A stretch of DNA of 38,043 bases from positions 1 through 38,043 of the forward strand of contig JARBAU010000066.1 in the NCBI GenBank assembly GCA_029237525.1, read 5' to 3'. The stretch's first letter is position 1, and every line of letters starts with the position of its first letter. Made by a program: the position numbers and the translations under genes. The DNA is from Nitrososphaerales archaeon (GTDB lineage Archaea; Thermoproteota; Nitrososphaeria; Nitrososphaerales; Nitrososphaeraceae). Positions 27,689 through 32,545 of this stretch are shown here, in pieces. A model generated the notes under the pieces. It saw only the letters and a program-made list of their open reading frames with translations. It had not been told where the DNA came from and did not search any database.

Positions 27689-30608
<2,920 letters not shown>

Positions 30609-30663
30609 CACTTTAAATTTGATTTTTTCCTGCTTTTAATGGTTTAGTATTGTACCGCCAGAT

Positions 30664-30810
30664 TCATCCGCCACCTGTAACAGCATCGTACAAGCAGCAT
30701 TCGCAGCTATCGAGTTCACCACAATAGGGACATGCGCACATACAAGCTTCCATCGAGTTTCCACAGTATTCACATAATGTTCCATCGGCACTAGATCCTC
30801 CCTCTGTCAT
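30664..30810 (-). CDS. 48-residue cysteine-rich protein upstream of korAB
   Basis: A short gene found by reading the minus strand. It encodes 48 residues with nine cysteines in three groups: LCEYCG, ACMCACPYCG and SCECCL. The CxxC spacings suit one or two zinc or iron-sulfur sites. It starts with ATG, with a good ribosome binding site (AAGGAGC) eight bases before, and ends with GGG before TGA. It lies 55 bases before korA on the same strand, so cotranscription with the ferredoxin-linked korAB pair is likely, although korA also has a possible own promoter. A redox role or metal storage is possible but not shown. I do not recognise the family. Confidence 0.68.
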   Translation of the reverse strand: MTEGGSSADGTLCEYCGNSMEACMCACPYCGELDSCECCLYDAVTGGG

Positions 30811-30818
30811 TTGGATTT

Positions 30819-30825
30819 GCTCCTT
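30819..30825 (-). promoter_or_regulatory. ribosome binding site of the cysteine-rich gene
   Basis: AAGGAGC, eight bases before the ATG; one of the few clear Shine-Dalgarno sites in a window where most genes appear leaderless. Confidence 0.6.
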
Positions 30826-30952
30826 CTATCATGTGCAGTTACTGTTAATATACATTTCAAGGATGACGTAAGGCTACGTTATGTCGACTCATTGAATTGA
30901 TCTTATAACTTAATATTCTAGTCAATTTGCTCTGGTTTGAAAGACTAATCTC

Positions 30953-30958
30953 TATATA
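30953..30958 (+). promoter_or_regulatory. TATA box of pdxS-pdxT
   Basis: TATATA centred 25 bases before the pdxS ATG. Confidence 0.55.
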
Positions 30959-30980
30959 AGTGTCTTAAGAATTCTTTCAC

Positions 30981-31937
30981 ATGGTAATATCTGTTGCTCA
31001 GCAAGAATCGAGGGCATCTAGATCCTTAGAAATTAGAAAGTTAACGATCGACCGTGGAACAACCCTTCTTAAAAGAGGTTTTGCTCGTATGCAAAAACAC
31101 GGCGTAATTATGGATATAACTAATGTTGAACAGGCTCGGATAGCGGAAGAGGCTGGTGCTGTAGCAGTTATGGTTCTAGACAAGCTACCGTACGACATAC
31201 GAAAAATGGGTGGTGTCGCGAGAACTGCTAGTGTAAATGTGATCCGTGAGATAATCGATAATACTACTATCCCAATTATGGCAAAATGTAGAATTGGCCA
31301 TGTCTCTGAAGCTCAGCTTCTCCAAGGCATTGGTGTAGATATGATAGATGAAAGTGAAGTGCTTACGCCAGCAGATGAACAACGACATATATGGAAATGG
31401 GACTTCACTACGCCATTCGTTAACGGTGCAAAGAATCTAGGTGAAGCACTACGTAGGATCGAGGAGGGTTGCGCTATGATTAGAACCAAAGGTGAACCAG
31501 GTACTGGCAATGTTTCAGAAGCTGTTTCACACATAAAATTGGTGAATTACGAAATTCGTAAACTTCATGCCTTGTGTGGTGACAAGCAAGAATTGATAAG
31601 AGTAGCAAGAGAAATGAGGGCATCATTCTCTCTGGTCGAGGAAGTTTCTCGTCTTGGTAAGTTGCCAGTCGTTAATTTCGCTGCTGGTGGTATATCAACT
31701 CCTGCAGATGCCGCTTTTCTCATGAATTTAGGATGCGATGGTGTGTTTGTCGGATCCGGTGTCTTTAAAGCCAACGACGCCTCCCAAAGGGCAAGAGCTA
31801 TAGTGCTTGCAACATCGCACTTTAATAGTCCTGAAATAGTTGCCGAAGCACAAAATATGATTGACGAAAACAAGTCGATGCTCGGGCTAGATACAAAAAA
31901 TCTCGAGTTAAGAATGCAAGAAAGAGGACCGATTTGA
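30981..31937 (+). CDS. pdxS: pyridoxal 5'-phosphate synthase lyase subunit PdxS
   Basis: PdxS (318 residues), the synthase subunit that makes pyridoxal 5'-phosphate from ribose 5-phosphate, glyceraldehyde 3-phosphate and ammonia; it forms a 12-mer of TIM barrels. The catalytic aspartate is in [12 protein letters not shown] (residue about 44), the first Schiff-base lysine in IMAKCRIGH (about 101), where many homologues have a small residue instead of cysteine, and the second lysine in [11 protein letters not shown] (about 169). Phosphate-binding segments and the [16 protein letters not shown] motif are intact. It forms an operon with pdxT, whose start overlaps its stop by four bases. The start fits a leaderless transcript from the TATA box. 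Confidence 0.98.
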
Positions 31938-32545
31938 GGAATTCGGTTAATATCGGGGTTTTGGGACTTCAGGGAGATATCGAAGAAAATATCATCTGCA
32001 CCAAGTCAGCAATGAAGAAAGCTAGATTAAATGGAGAGATAAAGGCAGTTCGTTATTCTGAAGACATTGAAAAGCTAGATGCAATGATAATTCCAGGAGG
32101 CGAGAGTACTGTAATGAGCTCACTTATTTCTGCGAAAGTCTTTCAATCTATCAAGACAAGAATTTCTGAAGGTATGCCAGTTCTGGGTGTATGCGCAGGA
32201 ATGATTTTGCTTTCTAAAGGGGCTTATGATAGAGTCGTAGGTGAGAGAAAACAAAATTTATTGTCAGCTTTGGATATTACCGTTGAAAGGAATGCCTTTG
32301 GTAGACAAAACGATTCGTTCGAAACCTATTTGAATATACCTCTAATTGGTAAAAGTAAAATTAGGGCTATTTTTATAAGAGCTCCAGTAGTAAAGGAAAT
32401 AGGTAAAGAAGTTGAAGTAGTAGCTAAGTTTGAGGACAAGATTGTTGCTGTAAAGCAGAATAACATTATTGGTACCTCCTTTCATCCTGAGCTAGGTGAT
32501 GACAAATTATTTTTGTTGTTTGTAAAGAGAGCATTTAAGATTTAA
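31934..32545 (+). CDS. pdxT: pyridoxal 5'-phosphate synthase glutaminase subunit PdxT
   Basis: PdxT (203 residues), the glutaminase that supplies ammonia to PdxS. It has the N-terminal [13 protein letters not shown], the IIPGGEST loop (about 52-59), the nucleophile cysteine in VLGVCAGM (about 79) and the triad histidine and glutamate in SFHPELG near the C-terminus. The catalytic triad is complete. It begins with TTG in the ATTTGA overlap with the pdxS stop, so it is translationally coupled. In an ammonia-oxidising organism, the use of glutamine-derived ammonia for the vitamin is ordinary. A tRNA-Leu gene converges on it 37 bases after its stop. Confidence 0.97.

Follow-up and report, generated by a model that had tools for sequence, protein, structure and literature searches.

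A cysteine-rich microprotein of 48 residues is encoded directly in front of korAB in the 38,043-nucleotide stretch of Nitrososphaerales DNA analysed here (the window), and its gene is kept before korAB in nearly all ammonia-oxidizing archaea as well as in other deep archaeal branches. The ammonia-oxidizing archaea are abundant organisms that live with oxygen; KorAB is a core enzyme of their carbon metabolism, and enzymes of its type are usually oxygen-sensitive. Gene order and co-inheritance make it very likely that the microprotein serves KorAB, and its cysteine motif suggests that it is likely to bind metal. The best reading, which we hold tentatively and with a little less than even confidence, is a metal-binding accessory factor that would serve the [4Fe-4S] cluster of KorB, in its assembly or its protection.

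The gene occupies positions 30664-30810 on the minus strand (ATG at 30810, TGA at 30666-30664) and was assigned from its sequence, its homologues and the selection acting on it. Its 48-codon frame translates to MTEGGSSADGTLCEYCGNSMEACMCACPYCGELDSCECCLYDAVTGGG, and it is present as a single copy in the 3.7-Mb draft genome of the window. Two signals on the same minus strand were read from the sequence: a Shine-Dalgarno AGGAG (30820-30824) situated 9 nt 5' of the ATG, confirming the good ribosome binding site claimed in an earlier note on this DNA, and a TATA-like element, TATATTA (30846-30852), which is a possible promoter of the small gene, korA and korB. A scan for bacterial-type promoters and terminators gave nothing above chance, as expected because the host is an archaeon.

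Searching with the 48 residues returned homologues at E <= 3e-13 in 60 of the 70 family genomes, and profile searches recovered the small gene from the majority of genomes in families f1, f2 and f3; among the named carriers are Nitrososphaera, Nitrosocosmicus, Nitrosopumilus and Nitrosothermus. When the window is compared with the closest member of its genus, the conserved core shows 17 synonymous changes and 1 nonsynonymous change, and the median dN/dS of about 0.10 over 234 usable pairs indicates strong purifying selection. Variation reaches the third position in 35 of 35 codons, the first in 17 and the second in 15. The codons of Cys 13, 16, 23, 25, 27, 30, 36 and 38 alternate between TGT and TGC with zero replacements in 50 sequences, so that these cysteines are preserved under substitution, and Cys39 is Ala in four of the 50. 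We are near certain that the frame is a real gene because of its phylum-wide conservation, its dN/dS of about 0.1 and its fixed position before korA, and the suspicion of a hidden short gene was thus borne out; a non-functional frame, for which its shortness and the lack of an annotated family would speak, is contradicted by the same three observations and can be practically dismissed. Two drafts (L104:5983-6123 and genome G011) carry an in-frame TGA inside the small gene, which reflects either an assembly error or a pseudogene.

The nine cysteines counted earlier are present (13, 16, 23, 25, 27, 30, 36, 38 and 39), but the ninth is not essential: Nitrosopumilaceae and many of the distant homologues have Ala in place of C39. 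The conserved design, with the spacing CxxC-x6-CxCxCxxC-x5-CxC, consists of two C-x-x-C...C-x-C modules and an invariant C-terminal T-G-G. Module 1 (C13-x-x-C16-G-x6-C23-x-C25; 30736-30774, minus strand) has cysteines that are invariant in alignments A1, A2 and A3, and module 2 (C27-P-Y-C30-G-x4-C36-x-C38-C39; 30694-30732, minus strand) ends in the cysteine that is unconserved outside part of the family. In the C-terminal tail, T45-G-G-(G) (30667-30678, minus strand), the T-G-G is invariant in the phylum-wide alignment A2, and the phylum-wide consensus reads C-x-x-C-(G)-N-x-I-D-x-C-x-C-x-C-P-Y-C-G-x-x-x-x-C-x-C-(A/C)-...-A-T-G-G at the C-terminus. Its halves resemble two copies of a single C-x-x-C...C-x-C unit, and the eight cysteines could therefore form two four-Cys metal sites. 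In the members examined the chain stops at most one residue past the T-G-G, suggesting a docking tail that probably binds a partner. The window protein is strongly acidic and contains neither Lys nor Arg, and it is therefore invisible to ordinary tryptic proteomics, which may help to explain why it has been overlooked. An AlphaFold2 model built with 50 homologues was poor (mean pLDDT 61).

The stop codon of the small gene lies 52 nt 5' of the GTG of korA (28644-30611, minus strand; GTG at 30611, alternative ATG at 30608), which encodes the alpha subunit, a gamma-alpha fusion, of a 2-oxoacid:ferredoxin oxidoreductase (OFOR). KorA matches POR and POR_N in Pfam and the archaeal equivalog NF041170 above its cut-off (E 4e-256, 851 bits). 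Overlapping korA by 11 nt, korB (27689-28654, minus strand) encodes the beta subunit with its TPP domain, matches the archaeal equivalog NF041171 above its cut-off (E 7e-133, 442 bits) and carries four [4Fe-4S] cysteines (17, 20, 51 and 200) in conserved columns. By both equivalogs and the four cluster cysteines, KorAB of the window is a two-subunit OFOR of the same type as StOFOR1/2. The KorA and KorB columns were compared between enzymes with and without the small gene: a KorA loop between YPITP and QxEDE (approximately residues 276-310 of window KorA, gene 28644-30611) is short in 46 of 46 rows with the small gene, and loops of at least 38 residues are confined to KorA lacking it (19 rows). 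We rejected loop length as a feature that separates the two groups: the counts are mutually exclusive, but they lose significance when the tree is taken into account.

In 55 of the 57 named loci the small gene immediately precedes korA and shares its strand; of the other two, L066 stops just behind the small gene, and L094 has only a partial KorA match, which starts further downstream. Phylum-wide, the same arrangement was found in 105 of 108 genomes at a median distance of 61 nt (maximum 280), and the three exceptions are all family f46, which is without KorA of this type and carries the small gene beside PTH2 and TruD. Distant homologues also lie just upstream of korA in families f4, f6, f9, f10, f12, f20, f25, f27, f55, f77 and f78. 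Full-length korA is present twice in each of three genomes (G332, G089 and G095), and the small gene stands beside one copy only, so that the linkage expected of a dedicated KorAB accessory gene is seen both across lineages and among paralogous copies. On the KorA tree the small-gene label needs 9 changes, compared with 27 in shuffles, and the linkage tracks the KorA lineage rather than the organism. Bearers from different families group together on this tree, which suggests that a cassette of the small gene and korAB was transferred between lineages. The link to KorAB put forward in the earlier note is therefore supported by the conserved same-strand position and by co-inheritance with one korAB copy.

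The small gene is missing before the native korAB copy of f4 and before korAB in f36, f41, f44, f51, f66 and f82, as well as from three f25 genomes and the reduced genus g30 of f2; its absence from genome G175 is uninformative, as the contig ends 196 nt upstream of korA. Because many two-subunit KorAB enzymes occur without the small gene, KorAB chemistry does not always need it. Its absence from relatives that have korAB, named earlier as evidence against the gene, is refuted for ammonia oxidizers and holds for some non-ammonia-oxidizing relatives and the one reduced genus. At L223, in genome G442 (family f31), a 57-residue YHS/TRASH-like Cys protein is encoded 19 bp upstream of korA, in the place of the small gene; the G442 korA copy sits within a small-gene clade of the KorA tree, as if the small gene had been replaced by another small metal protein. 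On the other side of the small gene, the window contains divergent pdxS (SNZ) and pdxT (SNO) at 30953-32545. We rejected them as a functional partner, since they hold that position in only part of the Nitrososphaeraceae. The element TATATAAG about 20 nt before the pdxS ATG suggests leaderless transcription.

The family is absent from Pfam and NCBIfam, and searches of Pfam, NCBIfam and the PDB with the protein and with profiles gave no significant match. The best Pfam matches were zinc ribbons (Zn_ribbon_3, best E 3e-4, from one distant member), and HVO_2753-like PF07754 (HVO_2753_ZBP) was matched by 1 of 17 members with E 0.76, missing the gathering score. The window protein does fall within the CPxCG motif class (fewer than 100 residues, two Cys/His patterns 7-40 residues apart, at least one of them CPxCG-like; PMC2253796), with C13EYCG and C27PYCG about 10 residues apart. 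The small zinc-finger u-proteins of archaea in this class (Brz, HVO_0758, HVO_2753) are, like the window protein, shorter than 70 residues and often unannotated, and have two C(P)XCG-like patterns within 7-40 residues; Brz is also encoded directly upstream of its functional partner. Unlike them, the window protein has extra C-x-C pairs, eight invariant cysteines, the C-terminal TGG and the tie to korAB. Of 14 Haloferax C(P)XCG proteins that were tested, five contained no zinc (PMC11241148). Known two-subunit OFORs are described as alpha and beta only, unlike the window locus with its third gene, and a search of the papers available found neither a dedicated third gene product of this kind for these enzymes nor a description of the small gene in ammonia oxidizers.

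We propose that the microprotein is a dedicated accessory factor of two-subunit KorAB. The eight invariant cysteines would make up two four-Cys modules with probably one metal apiece (zinc or perhaps an Fe-S cluster), and these metals would fold a chain that is otherwise poorly structured. With the TGG tail probably docking on its partner, the microprotein would most likely bind KorAB close to KorB's one [4Fe-4S] cluster, which lies near the surface, and help to insert or shield it; assembly or shielding of this cluster is the best single candidate mechanism. The only cluster of StOFOR from Sulfolobus is close to the surface of a large pocket thought to bind ferredoxin (PMC5020499). In D. africanus PFOR an extra C-terminal domain, domain VII, lies over the proximal [4Fe-4S] cluster and makes the enzyme stable to oxygen (PMC5020499); the likeness is an analogy only, as domain VII is a covalent C-terminal extension with a disulfide and the microprotein a separate Cys-rich protein. 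In f10 (G242 and G305) the Cys domain is fused to a NifU domain (PF01106, above the Pfam cut-off) and still lies directly before korA. NifU acts in Fe-S assembly, and the fusion, which is confined to this one family and absent from the window protein, points to Fe-S chemistry. Another small, uncharacterised protein encoded next to its enzyme, Aq_1163, co-purifies with Aquifex OGOR (PMC10052474); it is likened here by its small size and gene position, and its enzyme is bacterial and five-subunit whereas KorAB of the window has two subunits.

Against a dedicated KorAB role, the small gene of f46 is not associated with a KorAB of this type, and the Nitrosopumilaceae have paralogues outside the korAB locus, next to Lrp/AsnC regulators. 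Of the metal-binding KorAB partner suggested in the earlier note, the link to KorAB stands as supported; translation, metal binding, physical contact with KorAB and the role at the cluster are what we infer. A broader proposal, which we regard as possible but doubtful, is that two-subunit archaeal OFORs have an undescribed third component, an ancient phylum-wide microprotein that would install or shield the [4Fe-4S] cluster through its two four-Cys metal modules and docking TGG tail, and that would have helped an anaerobic-type enzyme to work in aerobic ammonia oxidizers. Conserved, co-inherited and so far missed, the microprotein provides a testable lead on how the KorB cluster is built or kept intact, and it is a candidate for the missing component of active recombinant KorAB.

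Among the alternatives, the microprotein could be a small zinc-finger regulator of korAB transcription or translation encoded beside its target. Brz of Halobacterium provides the precedent, as this small zinc-finger protein, whose gene directly precedes bop and points the same way, is required for bop mRNA (PMC2253796). The loose CPxCG-related motif and the Lrp/AsnC neighbours of the Nitrosopumilaceae paralogues are in keeping with such a role. However, the small gene stays co-linear with a single enzyme in deep lineages and after apparent transfers, the acidic chain, lacking Lys and Arg, is unlike a DNA- or RNA-binding protein, and the fusion partner is NifU rather than a DNA-binding domain; these points argue against a regulator, which we consider unlikely but possible. 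The gene-order evidence for the accessory factor would equally suit a third KorAB subunit that binds zinc and is purely structural, with no role at the cluster, and the short KorA loops of the bearers look as if a longer loop could substitute for the microprotein. Yet the loop pattern amounts to about one independent contrast with the KorA tree taken into account, and the NifU fusion indicates Fe-S chemistry; we consider this subunit unlikely too and rank it after the regulator.

An Fe-S electron-transfer subunit replacing the ferredoxin-like delta subunit that two-subunit enzymes lack is ranked below both and appears improbable. Eight conserved cysteines are the number needed for two [4Fe-4S] clusters, the gene adjoins that of a ferredoxin-dependent enzyme, and four-subunit relatives have a 2[4Fe-4S] delta subunit. 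However, the cysteine spacing differs from the CxxCxxCxxxCP cluster motif, which is absent from the window protein, the CPYCG knuckles look like zinc knuckles, and a ferredoxin profile search gave zero match even at E 10, which places the protein outside the 2[4Fe-4S] ferredoxins and OFOR delta subunits. Moreover, at five loci in families f4, f12 and f20 the small gene is itself directly preceded by a true 2[4Fe-4S] ferredoxin gene, whose product has two four-Cys cluster motifs, and the carrier role is therefore filled there. The earlier suggestion of a small electron carrier is thus weakened, and that of a metal store is unlikely because the cysteines are fixed in number and spacing and the gene goes with a single enzyme.

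The Nitrosopumilaceae paralogues away from korAB (L217:4690-4839, L218:4803-4955, L219:4596-4757 and L220:4845-4997) follow the pattern YTxCxxCHNPLPHCHCxCPYCGxRDxCECALFDAATGG, and genes for Lrp/AsnC-family regulators flank them in every locus looked at. A third paralogue type, without the TGG tail, was seen at L221 and L220. A further homologue, CDDCKNPIENCTCVCPFCGERDKCECGLKLSNDDSAATGG, is encoded on a putative viral contig from a viral collection (L271:4971-5144; IMGVR_UViG_3300006308_000188), near the contig end and on the strand opposite to the adjoining genes.
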